Source: Candidatus Margulisiibacteriota bacterium
GTDB taxonomy: Bacteria > Margulisbacteria > WOR-1 > JAHJIW01
NCBI GenBank assembly: GCA_018823125.1
Contig: JAHJIW010000011.1
Coordinates: 62,001 to 126,000, forward strand
Length of the DNA stretch: 64,000 nt
Direction: 5' to 3'
Shown: one piece after another, positions 2,763-63,055 of the stretch
Layout of the letters: each line of letters begins with the position of its first letter
How positions within the stretch are numbered: position 1 is the first letter of the stretch
Made by a program: the position numbers and the translations under genes
The notes under the pieces: model-generated
Databases searched by the model: none
What the model was told of the DNA's origin: nothing
The model's input: the letters and a program-made list of their open reading frames with translations, nothing else

Positions 2763-5302
<2,540 letters not shown>

Positions 5303-52918: not shown

Positions 52919-52993
52919 GGCGGCCTTGGTGTAGAGGTAACACAGCAGATTGTGGTTCTGCCTTCAGGGGTTCGATTCCCCTAGGCCGCCCCA
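52919..52993 (+). tRNA. tRNA-His (GUG), with encoded CCA and recombinase overlap
   Basis: The gene has G-1 paired with C73, the acceptor stem GCGGCCT/AGGCCGC, anticodon GTG and T loop TTCGATT. Unlike the other tRNAs here it is followed by encoded CCA (52991-52993). Its last 27 bases are also the antisense 3' end of the serine recombinase gene. The end GCCGCCCCA recurs at 63312-63320, marking it as the likely integration site. Confidence 0.93.
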
Positions 52994-54556
52994 TCTTGAA
53001 TTTCGAGCGTAAGCTAACTCGATTTTTCTTTGGTTCATGCGGTTTTTCATGGGTTCTAACCTTCTATGCAATAACTGCACCTCAGGAGCAAAGGCTGGAA
53101 ATATATCCAGCGGTTTTTTCAAGGTAACATGCAGTTTTCTGTCCTTTAACAGGAGGTTCGAGCCAAGATAGAAAAGAATCTTCTTTTTTGTTTCCAGGCT
53201 GCCATTGGTAAAACTTTCTCTGGCAGTTTCAGCAAATGAAAAGACCTGCTCGGCTTTTTCAAGCCATGCTTCAGTCCTCTGGTTTGAATCCACCAAGAGT
53301 TCTTCCAGCCTCTGTTTTTCTTTTAGCAGTTTTTCCTTTTTCTTCTTATATTCATCTGGCTCAATCTCATTATTCATCCGCATCTCAAATATTACGTCCA
53401 GGTTTCTCGTACACCTGCCAAGAGCTTGCTGTTGCGATTGGATAATTTGATTCCTGTCTTCCATTTCTTTGGCGTGCTCTTGTTTCAAGCATTTAATCGC
53501 CCACTGATGGAATTCGGGGGGAATCCTGATAGTATTTATGACATCAACCACTTGTTTTTCCAGTTCTTCTTCCCTGATGGTTTTCTGGCTACAATTTGGG
53601 TCAAGCTTTTTAGTGCAGCGGTAATATTTATAATTATGCGTATTTCCATTTTTTTGATGTTTAAACTTGTTTTCGGCAGTAATGGAAGCTCCGCACTCTC
53701 CACACCTTATAAGCCCCGTATAAGCAAATAAATGCCGTTTAGGACGTGGTTTCCCCCGACCACTGATGATTTGCTGCGCTGTTTCATATTCTGCTTGGGT
53801 AATCGTCGGTTCGTGACTACCTGGGTAAAGCTCTTTTTTCCAATAAAAGCTCCCATAATAAAAAGGATTTTTAAAAGTAAGATAAAACTTGCTCTTAGTA
53901 ATCTTCTTACCTTTGTCGGTAGTTAATCCCATATCATTTGCAACTTCATAAAGTTTGTTAACAGTATAGTTCTGTTCGATTATCATGTACCATAATTTTT
54001 TAACGAGGTCGAATCTATCTGGGTCTTTGTATATTGGTGGTTTGTCTGGCAGGTTATACTTGTTGTTTAAATAACCCAGGGGCGGTTTATGGGGATACCA
54101 TCCACTGCTTAGTTTTTTTCGCTGCCCTCTTTTGGTGGTTACGCTAAGGTCAAGGCTAAACTGGGTAGCAGAACCAAATTCAAGAGTCATCATTAGGACA
54201 TTATCGGTGGGGGAAAAACCTCTTTGATAAGTCTGTATATGTTTTATCGTGCCTTGCTGTAAATGCCAGCTTATCGTTCCGGCGTCAATCGGATTTCTTG
54301 TCAGCCTATCGAGCTTCCAACAAATTATCCCTTGGGCTTCCCCTTTTTGAATCCTTTCTATCATTTGGGTAAAAATCGGTCGGCCTGGTGCTTTTGCGGA
54401 TTTTTCTTCCTTAAAAACCTTTTTTATGGTTAGGCCTTTTTGTTTGGCAAGCCTGGTAAGTTCTTCAATTTGTGAAGGGATTGATGCAATCTGACGGTCT
54501 TCGCTTTCAGATGATTTTCTTGTATAGAGAAAATATTTAATTGAATTTTCCTTCAT
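52964..54556 (-). CDS. large serine recombinase
   Basis: The 530-residue protein is a large serine integrase. The catalytic Ser is in FLYTRKSSESEDRQIASI (about residue 15). The resolvase domain continues with IICWKLDRLTRNPIDAGTI, followed by the recombinase domain and a zinc ribbon (IRCGECGASI … YYRCTKK). A coiled coil lies near residues 390-450. The C-terminus is translated from the antisense of tRNA-His, so the last dozen residues (RWGGLGESNP) are dictated by the tRNA. It probably catalyses element integration at that site. Confidence 0.9.
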   Translation of the reverse strand: MKENSIKYFLYTRKSSESEDRQIASIPSQIEELTRLAKQKGLTIKKVFKEEKSAKAPGRPIFTQMIERIQKGEAQGIICWKLDRLTRNPIDAGTISWHLQQGTIKHIQTYQRGFSPTDNVLMMTLEFGSATQFSLDLSVTTKRGQRKKLSSGWYPHKPPLGYLNNKYNLPDKPPIYKDPDRFDLVKKLWYMIIEQNYTVNKLYEVANDMGLTTDKGKKITKSKFYLTFKNPFYYGSFYWKKELYPGSHEPTITQAEYETAQQIISGRGKPRPKRHLFAYTGLIRCGECGASITAENKFKHQKNGNTHNYKYYRCTKKLDPNCSQKTIREEELEKQVVDVINTIRIPPEFHQWAIKCLKQEHAKEMEDRNQIIQSQQQALGRCTRNLDVIFEMRMNNEIEPDEYKKKKEKLLKEKQRLEELLVDSNQRTEAWLEKAEQVFSFAETARESFTNGSLETKKKILFYLGSNLLLKDRKLHVTLKKPLDIFPAFAPEVQLLHRRLEPMKNRMNQRKIELAYARNSRWGGLGESNP

Positions 54557-55293: not shown

Positions 55294-55824
55294 TTATTTT
55301 TCGGAAATATCAACATCTATTGCCAACGGAATGTTATGTTTTTTTCCAGTACGAGCGGCTTGGATGCGCTGCAATTCGTGAAGGGCTTTATAAATGCCTC
55401 GCTCGATGCTTGCCTCGTAGCGTATAAGCTTCCCGTAAGTATCAAATTTGGCAAAATTGATGCTCATCGCCTTGCCAAGCGTCTTTGGGGTGTCGACGAT
55501 TTCGAAATCACTACCGTTTAGATCATAGTTCATCATCTCCCGTTCTACTCGCATTACACGTCTCAATCGCCAGGTATTAGCAGTGATCCTATCTACCAGC
55601 ATAAATTCAAGCTCTGTTTCCGGTTCTAATTCCGTCCTCAATCTTTTGCCGATTTCAATAAGAACTTCCTCGTCTTCTCCTGCAAGCAAAACCTCTTTAC
55701 TTAATAAACCGTGTTTCAAAGCGTTATATTTACTTACTACTTTGCCCTCTTGAGTTTTAGGCCCGGTGGACTGTAAGGCGTTCTGCTGATTGGCCTCCAA
55801 CTGTTTTTGTGATACTTCATTCAT
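55294..55824 (-). CDS. conserved element protein with STGPKTQEGK motif
   Basis: The 176-residue protein starts ANQQNALQSTGPKTQEGK and continues SKYNALKHGLLSKE, a recurring but uncharacterised motif pair in bacterial accessory regions. The rest is helical, with LVDRITANTWRLRRVMRVE. Function unknown; a DNA-associated role is a guess. It overlaps the primase-like gene by 8 nt and precedes the zinc-ribbon gene without a gap, so it belongs to one operon with the replication genes. Confidence 0.72.
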   Translation of the reverse strand: MNEVSQKQLEANQQNALQSTGPKTQEGKVVSKYNALKHGLLSKEVLLAGEDEEVLIEIGKRLRTELEPETELEFMLVDRITANTWRLRRVMRVEREMMNYDLNGSDFEIVDTPKTLGKAMSINFAKFDTYGKLIRYEASIERGIYKALHELQRIQAARTGKKHNIPLAIDVDISEK

Positions 55825-57997
55825 GGTTTCCCTCCTTATTGATATCTACCCCACCATACTGTTCACTATTGTTTTGCTGGGTAGATATAGTGAGCGGCGT
55901 GGTGGGGTAAACCAGCATTTTCCTTTTGTCATCAGGGTCTCGCTCCTGCATTATTAAGCCAGCGTTTTCTAACATCGGTATAATCTGCATTCGTAGAAGC
56001 CAATCGGCCAATACCCGTCCGTATTCCTGGATGTGCTTCTGCGTTACCTCTCGCCTCGTTAAACCCAGCCATTCTGCCGTATTATTGCCTCTATCCAGAT
56101 TTTTCTCTCTCCAAGCGGGGGTAATGATATCTTGGTATATCTGATAAATATAGGGGGGCAGATTAAACTCCTGGCTTTCGGAAATTATATGCCACACTTT
56201 GAACGCCTCATTGATATCATCTTCATTTACTATGATTGTCGATCCACTTCTTTCTCTGAACCATAAATTAAGTAAGGCAAATGCCTTAATAAGTGAGAGA
56301 ATACGTCCAATATCCCGCTGGTGTCTTGGTTTTAATATCTTATTTACAGTAAAAAATGCCTTTTCTATCTTTTCAGGCGAGCTTATTTTTATATCTCTAA
56401 TCTTTGCCTGCTTGATTGCTCGTATTCGCTCTTTGAGTAATTTTCGTTCCGGTTCATTCTCTAGAAATTGTTGAAATGTTAAGCTATCAGCTTCTTTTCT
56501 TATTTTTTGATAAATTGCTTCTCTTATTTTCTCTCGATTGGTTTCTGGGCTTAATAAAAGGAATCTCGTTGTCTCTTGCTCATCGAGTTTTAATCCCGCA
56601 GTGCAGAAAATCACGGATGGGAAACCTCGGAGATAGATATTTTTTGTCCTAAGTCCTGCTTTTTGGGATTTATCCGTAATCTTTATCCGAATTTCCTTTT
56701 TGTCGTGAGACAATAGAGGACGCAGGTGCTGTAAGAGCAAAGTATGCGGCTGGTCAAGAAAAATCAGAATCTTTCTGGATAAATCAACGGTATATCCTTC
56801 TTTCTCTTTTTCGTATTTCCCAGCGTCATGAAAGAATGCGGTGGGACTGCAATAGCCAACTTCGATTATATCTTCTTCTGGGAATAGTTGGGCGATCTCC
56901 GTGGGGATATATGATTTTCCGGTTGATGACGGCGCATTAAAACTGATATTTAACTGTGAGTTTTCTGTATAGGCGGAAAGTTCACATAAAAAGGTTATTA
57001 GTTTATTTTCCTCGTCCTTTTTGATGGTCAAGCCTAATATCTCGATGAGTTTTTGAGTCGAAAGCGGCTTAAACTGCGAAGTATCAATCTTTTCGGGATA
57101 TTCTTTTGCGTATTTCCCAAATAAATCTTCTGTTGAGCCTTTCAGTTTAACAAAATAATCAGTTATATCCCCGCCTTCCCCAACTTCATCAGGCAAAGTG
57201 ATAAGGTAGAGATCGTTATTTCCAGTCTCGAAAAGCATATCCACAACCCGTCTGGATCCATTCCGGCCAGCTTCGTCATTGTCATAGCAAATGTAGATTT
57301 TTCTCCCTTTCCCAATCTTCTCGACCCATTCCTGCTTGAAGGTCATGGCTCCGTGCGTCGAGCTGATCGCCGGTATTCCTTTTGATATCAACAGCAGTCT
57401 ATCCAGCTCGCCCTCGCAGATTACAAGCATTTTTTCTATATTTTGCAGAACTTCCCAATCGTATATTTGAGCTTCTACACCTTTCGGATAGGTCATTTTG
57501 TCATTGCCTTTGTTAGGATCTTGCCTTAACTTGAAAAACACAAAATTGCCATTGTTATCCTTAATTGGGATAGTTATCCAAGATTTACCATAGAATTCGC
57601 CCAGGCCGAGCTTGCACACCCCTATAACCGCATCTGTGATGCCTCTGGCGTTTAAATACCGCCTAATTTGTTCGGGAAGCGCTTGATGGCACTTTTCCAC
57701 CAAATCTTGATTGAACTTAGCTTTTTTATGATTTGGGCGTTTGATTGGACACAAGACAATATCTTTTGAATCGTCACCAAAATGCTTTGCAAGTGTTATA
57801 AGATTGCCGCTCGTACCACATTTTTTGCAATCATATTGCCCAGTATTAGCGCTAAAATAAAGATGCCTCTCACTACCCCTGCTGTCGTTATCACAGCCAT
57901 TAAATAAACATTGAGTTATTAGTTCTCCGCCTCTTTCTATAAAAATAATCCCTTTTTTACTTAAGTACTCTTTAATTGTAATTGTTTCTAAACTCAT
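55817..57997 (-). CDS. primase/helicase-like replication protein
   Basis: The 726-residue protein has an N-terminal zinc-finger region (CLFNGCDND … CKKCGTSG, about 28-62) like CHC2 primases, a Toprim domain (CEGELDRLL about 193; YDNDEAGRNGS about 238), and an ATPase domain with Walker A APSSTGKS (about 356) and LIFLDQPHTLL as Walker B. The C-terminal third contains a winged-helix-like region. This order matches replication proteins of phages and plasmids. It overlaps the genes on both sides by a few bases. A 26-bp part of its end recurs at the element's right end. Confidence 0.85.
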   Translation of the reverse strand: MSLETITIKEYLSKKGIIFIERGGELITQCLFNGCDNDSRGSERHLYFSANTGQYDCKKCGTSGNLITLAKHFGDDSKDIVLCPIKRPNHKKAKFNQDLVEKCHQALPEQIRRYLNARGITDAVIGVCKLGLGEFYGKSWITIPIKDNNGNFVFFKLRQDPNKGNDKMTYPKGVEAQIYDWEVLQNIEKMLVICEGELDRLLLISKGIPAISSTHGAMTFKQEWVEKIGKGRKIYICYDNDEAGRNGSRRVVDMLFETGNNDLYLITLPDEVGEGGDITDYFVKLKGSTEDLFGKYAKEYPEKIDTSQFKPLSTQKLIEILGLTIKKDEENKLITFLCELSAYTENSQLNISFNAPSSTGKSYIPTEIAQLFPEEDIIEVGYCSPTAFFHDAGKYEKEKEGYTVDLSRKILIFLDQPHTLLLQHLRPLLSHDKKEIRIKITDKSQKAGLRTKNIYLRGFPSVIFCTAGLKLDEQETTRFLLLSPETNREKIREAIYQKIRKEADSLTFQQFLENEPERKLLKERIRAIKQAKIRDIKISSPEKIEKAFFTVNKILKPRHQRDIGRILSLIKAFALLNLWFRERSGSTIIVNEDDINEAFKVWHIISESQEFNLPPYIYQIYQDIITPAWREKNLDRGNNTAEWLGLTRREVTQKHIQEYGRVLADWLLRMQIIPMLENAGLIMQERDPDDKRKMLVYPTTPLTISTQQNNSEQYGGVDINKEGNHE
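55886..55911 (+). repeat. 26-bp repeat (copy 1, inside the primase gene)
   Basis: The sequence begins TATAGTGAG and ends TGGTGGGGTAAA. It matches 63229-63254 at 23 of 26 positions in the same orientation. A further inverted relative is at 55847-55870, giving an inverted repeat in the last codons of the primase gene. Confidence 0.65.
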
Positions 57998-58562: not shown

Positions 58563-59375
58563 CTACTTATCGGAGATTAGAGTAAATCGGGTCTTGTAGG
58601 CCTTTACTTGTTTATAAGAGAAAAAGGGATCTCCCTCTATTTGATTTCCATCCATTTGGATGATGGCCTTTTTTAAGGTTTTGGAGAGCTGCTTCTTTCT
58701 TGCTTTATTTTGATCTGGCACCTTGATTATGCCAAATCCTCTGTTTTGAGCTTCATTGTTAGCGTCATCAAAATCATTGCTAAAATCCTGTGCGATTTTT
58801 CTGAGGTTGGTTTTTTTACCTAAGTGAGGCTTTTCCCAAGATATCTCTCCGTTGTTTTCAGCTAATTGTCCCAGCATTTCCCATTGTATGTTTGGCAGTA
58901 GACTTTTTCTGTCCTCAAATCCCATTTCTTTATAATTTCTGGTTTCATTGACGTTTTTACCAGTGATCTTTATAGTATGTCCATCGATAAATTTAATTGT
59001 TATAGCATCCCATTTAGTACCGTTAGGAACTATTACGGGATTGATCGGCAACTTAGGAATCCTTTTTTTCTCAATCTTAGCGGCCTTATGCTTATATGAT
59101 TTATATAATTCATCAAATTTTGGCTGATTGATTGTTGCCCAATAGCGAAATACTTGTTCTTCAACCATCCCAGGACATGCATCTGGTTTGATGAAAAAAG
59201 CTCCTTCTCTTCCTAATTTATAAAGTGCCTGTCTTTGTCTATGAAGAGATATTCCTAGCGAGGGTTTAACTTCGAATGTTACACGAGAAAGCAGCTCGTC
59301 TTGACAAACTAATTCCTCTTTGATTTCGTTTATTATCAACCACTTGCAATAATCAGATTTTTCTTCATGTGTCAT
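58563..59375 (-). CDS. element protein of unknown function, possible winged-helix part
   Basis: The 270-residue protein is soluble, Lys-rich and not assignable. The N-terminal half is helical. Residues about 115-160 (PNGTKWDAITIKFIDGHTIKI and then TGKNVNETRNYKEMGF) look like a small strand-turn-helix module. The C-terminal LSKTLKKAIIQMDGNQIEGDPFFSY segment may be a winged-helix-like or DNA-binding end. Similar short phrases occur in accessory proteins of uncultivated bacteria. It ends about 140 nt upstream of the replication operon and is probably transcribed separately. Confidence 0.65.
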   Translation of the reverse strand: MTHEEKSDYCKWLIINEIKEELVCQDELLSRVTFEVKPSLGISLHRQRQALYKLGREGAFFIKPDACPGMVEEQVFRYWATINQPKFDELYKSYKHKAAKIEKKRIPKLPINPVIVPNGTKWDAITIKFIDGHTIKITGKNVNETRNYKEMGFEDRKSLLPNIQWEMLGQLAENNGEISWEKPHLGKKTNLRKIAQDFSNDFDDANNEAQNRGFGIIKVPDQNKARKKQLSKTLKKAIIQMDGNQIEGDPFFSYKQVKAYKTRFTLISDK

Positions 59376-59447: not shown

Positions 59448-60494
59448 TTAGAAAAGGATAGTAGCTCTTAACTTGTAATGGTCATATTTTATTTCATTAA
59501 GATTTACTATTTGAAATGGCGCTTTGTCTTTTGTATCAAGATGAGCAAAAAAATCAGAATCTGTGCCCAAAACATCTCCATTTTCATCATAATATGTAAC
59601 TGAAATTTCTATGGCAGTCGCATATCTTCCTGTATTATTTTGTGCTTCTCCAACTATTACCGGTATTCCTGCGGCTGAAGTTGCTCTATGGCTTAGTATA
59701 TCAATATGTCTATTTCCTCCAATTACGCTTTTCAATGACTTCCTAGGTGCATTATCTGCTTTGTTTTTTGTAGTTGATTTTATTTTCTTCCCCTTCTCAT
59801 AGTATTCTTCCTTTAGAAGATTGCCCTCATTGTCATAATTTCTAGCATAGCCATCTAATGCCCCATCATTGAAATACATTTCCCGTTGTAAGTGTCCATC
59901 TGTGTAGAAGGTTCTTAATATCCCGTCTAGCTTGCCTTCTTTATAGTTGGATTCATATTTAATTTGGCCATTAGGATAGAACATTTTGTTTAAGCCCTCT
60001 GGGGTTCCATTTTTTAGGTTTCCTTCAAGCTGAAGAATGCCATTATCGAATACTTTAATAACCCCATTCTTTTTCCCTGCCACAAAACTAGTAATAGATT
60101 GTAATTTTCCGTTTTCATCATAATATGCGTTTTGATGACCTTCAAAAAGATTATCTTTTAAATTGTAACTTACCTTAAGATTTCCGTTTTCATAATATTC
60201 GATCTGTTTGCCATTTATTTTGTTGTTTTTGTATTGAACTAATAATTCTAACTTGCCATCTGAATAATACCGACTAACAAATCCATCAGGGATATTACCA
60301 ACGACCTCTTTTGCTACCCCATTCTCATCAAAAAGCTTATGAGCAATCATCTTATTATGCTCATAAAAAGTTACTTCTTTGGCGATCCCATTTGCATATC
60401 TTTGTGTAATTTCAGAAGTCACTTCGGCAATAGAACTGCTTGACGAAATTGCCATAATAATAAGCATAAACAGTAAAACAGTGATTTTCTTCAT
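59448..60494 (-). CDS. secreted MORN-variant repeat protein (YwqK-like) with FxLYD-type end
   Basis: The 348-residue protein has a signal peptide (ITVLLFMLIIMAISSSSSIAEV) and about eight tandem 20-23-residue repeats of the MORN variant kind (for example YYENGNLKVSYNLKDNLFEGH and MFYPNGQIKYESNYKEGKLDG) over residues 30-235. The last 90 residues resemble an FxLYD-type domain (VGEAQNNTGRYATAIEISVTYYDENGDVLGTD). Databases often call such repeats YwqK-family antitoxin, but that function is poorly supported. A neighbouring secreted protein gene follows 130 nt upstream. Confidence 0.78.
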   Translation of the reverse strand: MKKITVLLFMLIIMAISSSSSIAEVTSEITQRYANGIAKEVTFYEHNKMIAHKLFDENGVAKEVVGNIPDGFVSRYYSDGKLELLVQYKNNKINGKQIEYYENGNLKVSYNLKDNLFEGHQNAYYDENGKLQSITSFVAGKKNGVIKVFDNGILQLEGNLKNGTPEGLNKMFYPNGQIKYESNYKEGKLDGILRTFYTDGHLQREMYFNDGALDGYARNYDNEGNLLKEEYYEKGKKIKSTTKNKADNAPRKSLKSVIGGNRHIDILSHRATSAAGIPVIVGEAQNNTGRYATAIEISVTYYDENGDVLGTDSDFFAHLDTKDKAPFQIVNLNEIKYDHYKLRATILF

Positions 60495-60621: not shown

Positions 60622-61020
60622 TCATTTACCCTTTCTAAAGTCTTCAATAGTATATTTACCCATGAACTTATCTTTGTAATAAACATAAGAATGTTTAATT
60701 ATTTTATCGCTTTTATTATCAATGTATTCACTATTAGCTACGTTCCATATTGATTTAGCCATTCCCCCGTAAGGATCTTTAATGCTATCATCAACACTAA
60801 GATATAATCCCATAGCGACCTTCCCAAGCTCACTTAAGTAAACTCTAATTGTATCTCCTTTAATCTCTACCCTTTCAAAGATACTGTTGTCACCAAGCAG
60901 GAGTTCTAAATAAACTTTAATTTCAACCTTATTATCAATATTTGTCACATCTACCAAAGAAAATGCCGGACCAGATAAAACCATTAAAATAAACATAACT
61001 AATAATAATTTACTTCTCAC
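60622..61020 (-). CDS. small secreted protein of unknown function
   Basis: Starting at the GTG at 61020, which has GGGGTGA upstream, the protein has 132 residues with a signal peptide (SKLLLVMFILMVLSGPAFS). The mature part is a strand-rich domain (KVEIKVYLELLLGDNSIFERVEIKGDTIRVYLSE) followed by GGMAKSIWNVANSEYID. I recognise no family. A longer frame to 61140 exists but would run antisense-free through the superinfection-immunity-like gene, so I reject it. It lies 5 nt behind that gene. Confidence 0.65.
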   Translation of the reverse strand: MRSKLLLVMFILMVLSGPAFSLVDVTNIDNKVEIKVYLELLLGDNSIFERVEIKGDTIRVYLSELGKVAMGLYLSVDDSIKDPYGGMAKSIWNVANSEYIDNKSDKIIKHSYVYYKDKFMGKYTIEDFRKGK

Positions 61021-61025
61021 AAAGA

Positions 61026-61205
61026 TCACCCCTTTTTTTCGGCCGCTAAAGCCCAGCATAATGCCCCTACTCACCCGAAAAAAGTCCAACCGAGCAATAT
61101 GTTCAATGCAATAATCCCATCGCGACCCTTTCTGTTCCATGCAATTATTGACGGAGCAAAATAAATAACTAAAAATGCGATAAACATTAGTGTTGAATCG
61201 TCCAT
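61026..61205 (-). pseudogene. superinfection-immunity-like small membrane protein with in-frame TGA
   Basis: This frame, too short for routine detection, starts at an ATG with a GGAGGA site and encodes two hydrophobic segments, MFIAFLVIYFAPSIIAWNRK and IIALNILLGWTFFG. It then meets TGA at codon 45 (61071-61073) and continues in the same frame as VGALCWALAAEKKG to a second TGA. Superinfection-immunity proteins (T4 Imm-like) have GWT-x(2)-GW at this point, so the TGA replaces an expected Trp. The simplest reading is a Trp-to-stop mutation; the first 44 residues may still be made. Confidence 0.72.
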
Positions 61206-61267
61206 TTCTTTCCTCCGATTCATTGCGTTAATGGTAGGTTTTTCTCTAAACTATGAGCATATGTTAT

Positions 61268-61285
61268 CACCGCATATATGCGGTG
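61268..61285 (+). promoter_or_regulatory. 18-bp perfect palindrome, likely repressor operator
   Basis: CACCGCATATATGCGGTG is its own reverse complement. It ends at the region expected for the -35 of the XRE gene and lies between the divergent XRE and superinfection-immunity-like genes. This is the expected place for an XRE repressor to control both directions. Confidence 0.7.
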
Positions 61286-61319: not shown

Positions 61320-61541
61320 ATGAATAAGGATATTAAAATTGAATTAGGGAAGCGTATTAAGGCTCTGCGAGGTAAATATAACCTAAGTCAAGAGCGATTG
61401 GCCGAATTGGCGAGAACAGACTATAAGCACATCCAAAAATTGGAAGGTAAAAATCCTCCGGCAGCTCAAATAGACACTTTAGAAAAGATTGCAAAGGCAT
61501 TTAAGCTGAGTGTGTCTAAACTGCTCGATTTTGACGATTAA
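61320..61541 (+). CDS. XRE-family HTH repressor
   Basis: The 73-residue protein is almost only a helix-turn-helix domain: LGKRIKALRGKYNLSQERLAELARTDYKHIQKLEGKNPPAAQIDTLEKIAKAF, of the lambda-repressor/XRE type. It is small and without a ligand or dimerisation domain, as in many phage and plasmid repressors. I start at the ATG at 61320, which is leaderless; a longer frame would add residues encoded by the palindrome region. It probably regulates itself and the divergent element genes through 61268-61285. Confidence 0.88.
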   Translation: MNKDIKIELGKRIKALRGKYNLSQERLAELARTDYKHIQKLEGKNPPAAQIDTLEKIAKAFKLSVSKLLDFDD

Positions 61542-61774: not shown

Positions 61775-61882
61775 TATGGAAGAATCTTTATTTAAAGATA
61801 TTTATAAATTTGTTCAAGATTATTTAGCAGCAAGCCCTTCAATAAATTCTATCATTTCACTAACCACATTAAACGCCGAATG
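61775..61882 (+). pseudogene. truncated 5' end of a gene, now overlapping the HEPN-like gene
   Basis: A GGAGG site and ATG open a 35-residue frame, MEESLFKDIYKFVQDYL followed by residues that are antisense to the 3' end of the HEPN-like gene. The first 17 residues look like the start of a real protein that is cut off where the HEPN-like gene begins (about 61820). It suggests the HEPN-like gene was inserted here. GAGGTCGATAT occurs twice (61707 and 61766), once at the ribosome site. Confidence 0.45.
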
Positions 61883-63055
61883 AGCTTCCTCTATTGTGGC
61901 CTCAGCCACTTTCCCATGGGCCAGATTATTCCTTAGCTTTCTTGCGGAATTGATCTTCCCCAACAAATCCTTGCTTGGCTTCTTATTTTCAGGACAAACA
62001 GCTACAAAATCTATATTCAAGACATGGCTAAAAGTCATGTCTTTTCCGTGTTCATCAAGTTTATTTTTAGAAACTCCTAGATCTATTAACATTTTAGTCG
62101 TAAATTTTGAAACACAAATATCTATTGCAAAAACCGATTGAAGTAACGCCTGTGTCCAATTCCCCACATCCAGCCAACTTCCTGCCTGTAATAATATATC
62201 TTTATAATTTAATTTCCCCCAATTATCACTATTTATATCTTTAAGGTCTAAATATTCTTGCTTTGATAATCTCAACGGTTTTTCAATTACACGTGCGGTA
62301 TTTGCGGAAAATGCCATTGACGTATTAACACGAGCATCTTTTCCCCATACCGCTATTATAATTTTATCTAATATTAACAAATCGATGTAGGGCGGGATTA
62401 TGCCGCGATAACCACTACGCAATCTTCGAAAAGCAAACAATATCTTATTTAAATCAACCAATAAATATTGCAATATCTTTTCTAAGTTTTCCTCAAAAGC
62501 AGTTTCCGGACTCTCCCCCCTTATTTCGAAAACAGAGGTTACAAATGTTTTCATTAAATTCACTATATATGGCTTCTCAGATAAATCGAATTCTTTTATT
62601 GCCTCTCTGATTTTTGGCCCAGGCATAACGTAATATCTGGCAGCACTACCATCAAGAGCTCCATGCCCAACATCGAGCCTTATGTGTTGGTTAGAAATAA
62701 AATATTCTCTCACGCCACTATTGCATGGAACATTTATTGAAAACTCATTTTCTCCTTCTGGGGCAGGCAACAATATCGGCAATTCTACCCCCAGTTCAAT
62801 AAAATACTTGTTCTTATCGGCTGGGTATATTTTATCAAAGAATTTAGCTATGGAACGACGACTTCCCCCAACACCATCAAGATGGGCAAAAATTTCCAAA
62901 GGATTTAATTCTACGGCAGATTTAAGCAAAAGGCTTTTATCTGCAAAACGCATATTTCCTGATTCGAACTCTCTTAAAAATAAACGTAGCTTCTTTATTT
63001 CAAGCATATCCAAATTATACCCTAACAAATTGAAACCTGCTAACAACGTGCTCAC
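61820..63055 (-). CDS. HEPN-like protein near the element's right end
   Basis: The 411-residue protein is not recognised as a whole. The C-terminal 120 residues form a helical HEPN-like end with NSARKLRNNLAHGKV (about 366-380), which contains the R-N-x3-H motif of HEPN ribonucleases in toxins and defence systems; GSWLDVGNWTQALLQSVFAIDICVSKF precedes it. The N-terminal 230 residues have no recognisable motif but include PEGENEFSINVPCNSGVREYF. I see no clear partner antitoxin gene. The start ATG lies in a region without an obvious ribosome site, so the true start may be slightly inside. Confidence 0.68.
   Translation of the reverse strand: MSTLLAGFNLLGYNLDMLEIKKLRLFLREFESGNMRFADKSLLLKSAVELNPLEIFAHLDGVGGSRRSIAKFFDKIYPADKNKYFIELGVELPILLPAPEGENEFSINVPCNSGVREYFISNQHIRLDVGHGALDGSAARYYVMPGPKIREAIKEFDLSEKPYIVNLMKTFVTSVFEIRGESPETAFEENLEKILQYLLVDLNKILFAFRRLRSGYRGIIPPYIDLLILDKIIIAVWGKDARVNTSMAFSANTARVIEKPLRLSKQEYLDLKDINSDNWGKLNYKDILLQAGSWLDVGNWTQALLQSVFAIDICVSKFTTKMLIDLGVSKNKLDEHGKDMTFSHVLNIDFVAVCPENKKPSKDLLGKINSARKLRNNLAHGKVAEATIEEAHSAFNVVSEMIEFIEGLAAK

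Follow-up and report, generated by a model that had tools for sequence, protein, structure and literature searches.

An Imm_superinfect-family gene of an integrated element in a Candidatus Margulisiibacteriota genome carries an in-frame TGA at an invariant tryptophan codon

The window analysed here is a stretch of 64,000 nucleotides of contig JAHJIW010000011.1 (positions 62,001 to 126,000) from a Candidatus Margulisiibacteriota bacterium, whose genome is a draft of 19 contigs and 94% complete (GCA_018823125.1). It contains an integrated element (Table 1), to which small genes belong in addition to those for the recombinase, the primase, the MORN/FxLYD protein and the 132-aa protein. One of the element genes, hereafter imm, is interrupted by a TGA codon.

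Table 1 Features of the imm locus and of the surrounding element. Positions are those of the window; aa, amino acids.
Feature	Position	Strand	Basis
Imm_superinfect (PF14373) gene with an in-frame TGA inside (imm)	61026..61205	-	Frames, profile search, sequence
In-frame TGA at the invariant second Trp of the family (GWT-x-x-G-W)	61071..61073	-	Sequence, profile alignment
Second TGA, final stop at the family-typical gene end	61026..61028	-	Sequence; comparison with viral loci
GGAGG ribosome-binding-like site and ATG start	61203..61216	-	Sequence read directly
Cro/CI-like HTH regulator (HTH_19, HTH_3), divergent from the imm operon	61320..61541	+	Profile match, frame scanned from 61281; putative start at 61320
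Perfect 18-bp palindrome CACCGCATATATGCGGTG	61268..61285	.	Between promoter-like hexamers facing imm
132-aa protein with signal-peptide-like N-terminus, no family; downstream of imm	60622..61020	-	Profile searches, sequence
MORN_2 repeat protein with C-terminal FxLYD domain, cargo	59448..60494	-	Profile searches
Toprim primase/helicase-like element protein	55817..57997	-	Profile searches
Large serine recombinase (integrase), 3' end overlapping tRNA-His	52964..54556	-	tRNA and profile searches

The imm gene starts on the minus strand with the ATG at 61205-61203, upstream of which lies a GGAGG (CGGAGGAAAGAAATG). The frame runs for 44 codons to the TGA at 61073-61071, continues for 14 more codons (VGALCWALAAEKKG) and ends with the TGA at 61028-61026, giving 44 aa up to the first stop and 59 residues if this is read through. 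A second in-frame ATG lies further upstream at 61223, while the GGAGG precedes 61205 instead. The plus strand across the gene holds an unrelated frame containing stops. A first-pass annotation, made from the sequence alone, had proposed a superinfection-immunity gene here. We retain its span, family and frame, to which the minus strand has to be added.

The 44-aa frame alone matched profile PF14373 with 39.0 bits, above the cut-off of 27.9. With the TGA read as Trp the score rose to 53.8 bits and the match covered 42 of 42 profile positions, the codons after the TGA thus contributing approximately 15 bits. The earlier proposals that the frame continues behind the TGA and that the gene is of the superinfection immunity kind are therefore corroborated. 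In addition, the imm protein matched phrog_1039 ('immunity to superinfection') in PHROGs, and PADLOC returned no match for it. Judged by its sequence, the imm frame is a true member of the PF14373 family and not a chance match. A whole-genome search showed that it is the only such gene in the 1.73-Mb genome, this one copy having one TGA. A limited search of the open-licence literature yielded no paper naming the accession PF14373.

An intact protein of this family is predicted from its sequence to have two membrane helices, and imm would thus encode a two-helix membrane protein. As the family name suggests, such a protein may reside in the inner membrane and hinder the entry of DNA from other phages, as T4 Imm would. 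Translation of imm should terminate at the TGA and leave the second membrane helix cut in half, so that the resulting 44-residue product probably lacks activity.

The surroundings of imm are those of a mobile element. The palindrome between imm and the divergent HTH regulator is the only perfect one of its length in the window and likely represents the operator of this regulator, which may thereby control imm. A promoter scan returned sites no more numerous than in shuffled sequences (6 versus 5.2). Among 74 genomes of the phylum, the 132-aa protein encoded downstream had a match only in the window's own genome. Two further proteins gave weak matches: a 270-aa protein (58563-59375) to the RexA model of PADLOC (20.8 bits, E 5.3e-05), and a 411-aa protein (61820-63055) with a HEPN-like C-terminus (20.2 bits, under the Pfam cut-off). 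The closest relative of the element was found in a genome (G025) from the same class but a different family, where a 77% identical primase lies beside a related recombinase gene (2785-4508 of the retrieved locus, L044) with a 3' end overlapping tRNA-Gln. Related elements thus use different tRNA genes, namely tRNA-His in the window (52920-54556) and tRNA-Gln in the relative, and carry swapped cargo. A search for an exact repeat of the tRNA-His 3' end, extended to 40 kb past the window, gave no match that would mark the far end of the element.

To assess the residue at the TGA position, we used two HMM-based surveys that were independent of the motif and gave 15 matches in 369 genomes and 35 matches in 385 genomes. 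For 45 of these 50 matches a locus was available; one (L214) failed to align to the profile, and two (L177 and L191) belong to genomes already known from loci found by pattern. Trp occupied the column of the TGA in all 44 alignable loci, as well as in both relatives from the phylum, with the profile that defines the column built from 11 sequences including the window's own read-through product. This makes it the most constant residue of the family; the first Trp of the motif was conserved in only 38 of the 44. The TGA hence lies at an expected Trp codon, as the first-pass annotation had stated, and the second Trp of GW-x-x-x-GW is not encoded in imm. Trp was also present in all nine genome_contigs loci, which, like 13 viral loci, had been fetched with patterns including GWTFFGWV, and a further 80 viral loci were fetched with a pattern requiring the Trp. 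As these patterns included the Trp, all three sets carry little information on its conservation.

Apart from imm itself, none of 58 distinct genome matches contained a stop inside the gene. These comprise 2 relatives found in 190 genomes, 8 genomes whose loci came from the earlier pattern search, and sets of 14 and 34 matches (G195 and G191 each counted once). Homologues that end at the position of the imm TGA or lack the Trp, which would have spoken against the first-pass annotation, were not seen among the relatives. All 80 viral relatives extend beyond the GW motif, by 9-113 residues compared to 14 in imm, which together with the constancy of the Trp indicates that imm is not a naturally short gene. 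Viral contig L174, the sole match of the motif with TGA in place of the Trp codon, proved on translation to be a chance match in a stop-filled frame and not a relative; the same motif with TAG was not found in viral contigs. Taken together, imm appears to be a family member by descent that has been disrupted, and its working state is putative.

It is very unlikely that the 44-aa frame is used as such, or that a -1 shift at T TTT TTC just before the TGA carries ribosomes on into the reading frame of the protein encoded downstream. A slippery-type heptamer does lie in the suitable phase within ACT TTT TTC GGG TGA, and no stop interrupts the -1 frame across 60622-61140. However, the heptamer coincides with the conserved T-F-F, which dictates the codons, and ACT TTT TTY occurred in 2 of 35 GWTFFG motif matches (from 104 fetched loci, some viral contigs having been fetched twice). 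Moreover, no RNA structure was detected downstream of the TGA, the downstream gene has a GTG start of its own preceded by an AGGGG site, and the fusion would cost half of helix 2. A conserved -1 fusion was not seen among the relatives, and the C-terminal half that the short frame would lack is kept in all relatives seen. Both natural truncation and -1 frameshifting were tested, and the evidence lowers the likelihood of each.

Three explanations had been offered by the first-pass annotation: a fresh nonsense mutation, an element that came from a host reading TGA as Trp, and readthrough. It had also considered full recoding unlikely, which agrees with the presence of an RF2-like gene and the wide use of UGA as a stop. 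RF-1 family proteins are encoded at three places in the genome, and the host has RF1 besides the RF2-like gene; of the 62 ORFs of 80 aa or longer picked mechanically from the window, 17 have TGA as their stop. All 43 tRNA places in the genome were given an anticodon by ARAGORN, and a UCA anticodon was not among them, in a genome whose 94% completeness leaves room for a missing tRNA. The single tRNA-Trp has the anticodon CCA, a 5-bp anticodon stem (C27-G43 to T31-A39), A9 and G24. A 4-bp anticodon stem, A9C and G24A in tRNA-Trp have been linked to UGA reading (excerpt of PMC13092985); with its full 5-bp stem, A9 and G24, the host tRNA-Trp is without all three of these features. Recoding of TGA as Trp in the host or the element is hence not supported. 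The RF2-like gene itself (L093, G000:C4:215000-216500) is interrupted by TAT CTT TGA A, and the remainder of the protein lies in the +1 frame. This resembles the known RF2 autoregulatory +1 frameshift site, published as CUU UGA C (excerpt of PMC5289835), the base after UGA being A in the host and C in the published site.

A donor in which TGA means Trp, or insertion of selenocysteine at the imm TGA, is barely credible, even though the TGA falls exactly at a Trp codon position. A search for other in-frame TGA codons, as suggested by the first-pass annotation, covered nine further genes of the element, in which 26 TGG and not a single internal TGA were counted and of which five end in TGA; this disfavours such a donor. 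So does the similar primase of G025, a member of the same class, as it indicates that this kind of element circulates within the phylum. Selenocysteine would require a machinery of which neither SelB (best 82.2 bits in the genome, cut-off 242.25) nor tRNA-Sec (best 45.6, cut-off 47, at a place that ARAGORN calls tRNA-Leu) exceeded its cut-off, their absence being not fully proven at 94% genome completeness. A SECIS-type structure after the imm UGA was likewise not found, as no stable fold was obtained.

Functional readthrough at a low level, in which near-cognate tRNA-Trp places Trp at the UGA and yields a small amount of full-length immunity protein, perhaps as a form of dose tuning, is quite improbable. 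It would account for a downstream frame that is intact and ends at the family-typical length, and UGA is described as the bacterial stop most often read through (excerpt of PMC5289835). Against it stand the host tRNA-Trp, which lacks the 4-bp anticodon stem, A9C and G24A (excerpt of PMC13092985), and the G that follows the imm TGA, whereas in E. coli it is an A at this place that reportedly promotes misreading by tRNA-Trp (excerpt of PMC5289835). Furthermore, the stretch of 87 nt starting with the codon ahead of the TGA is less stably folded than shuffled sequences (z = +1.78), and the stop is shared by none of the 58 relatives. With a standard tRNA-Trp, an RF2-like gene and no downstream RNA structure, readthrough as proposed by the first-pass annotation has no positive support. 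It may be speculated that selection keeps the UGA, either because its leaky decoding by tRNA-Trp holds the membrane immunity protein at a very low dose or because it makes that dose depend on the levels of Trp-tRNA and RF2, but this we regard as most improbable.

Of the three explanations offered initially, the fresh nonsense mutation is the best supported. We consider imm, which the small integrated element carries as cargo, to have probably undergone a recent nonsense mutation at the codon for the invariant second Trp. The change would be recent since the start site, both flanking frames and the terminal stop are intact. On the other hand, the 14 downstream codons look unspoiled and fit the profile, which selection combined with readthrough would produce as well. 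Among the searched genomes there was no closely related imm copy that could date the change or reveal an intact parent, and the element in G025, which lacks imm (best tblastn E 0.66), offers no date for it either. A consensus error, in which the true base would give the usual Trp codon and leave imm intact, is rather unlikely, although imm is perfect apart from a single base and lies in a draft assembly of several contigs. Most simply, the TGA is explained either by a nonsense mutation that arose recently in dispensable cargo or by a consensus error in a draft genome.

If the nonsense mutation is real, it is of little consequence in itself, as it affects a single gene that is decaying among the cargo of a mobile element; the survey, in turn, shows how constant this Trp is across the family. 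Readthrough, if shown, would constitute an unusual control of the dose of a phage-exclusion protein by a stop codon. The observations speak for a commonplace loss of function of recent date or for a consensus error, and not for a novel reading of the code.

T4 Imm is the namesake of the Imm_superinfect family PF14373. A part in blocking the translocation of secondary phage genomes has been ascribed to it (excerpt of PMC6832632). Like the members of this family, imm is carried by a mobile element, comprises approximately 60 aa if read through and shares the motifs Y-x-x-P-x-I-x-A and N-x-x-x-GWT-x-x-G, whereas the TGA replaces the invariant second Trp. Its loop is two residues shorter than in most of the family, as is also the case in the relative from genome G042. 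Bacteria that read UGA as Trp, by a tRNA-Trp with anticodon UCA or by a tRNA-Trp CCA with a 4-bp stem (excerpt of PMC13092985), likewise have in-frame UGA at Trp positions. In contrast to them, a single gene is affected in the present genome, which has an RF2-like gene and a canonical tRNA-Trp CCA and uses UGA as a common stop.
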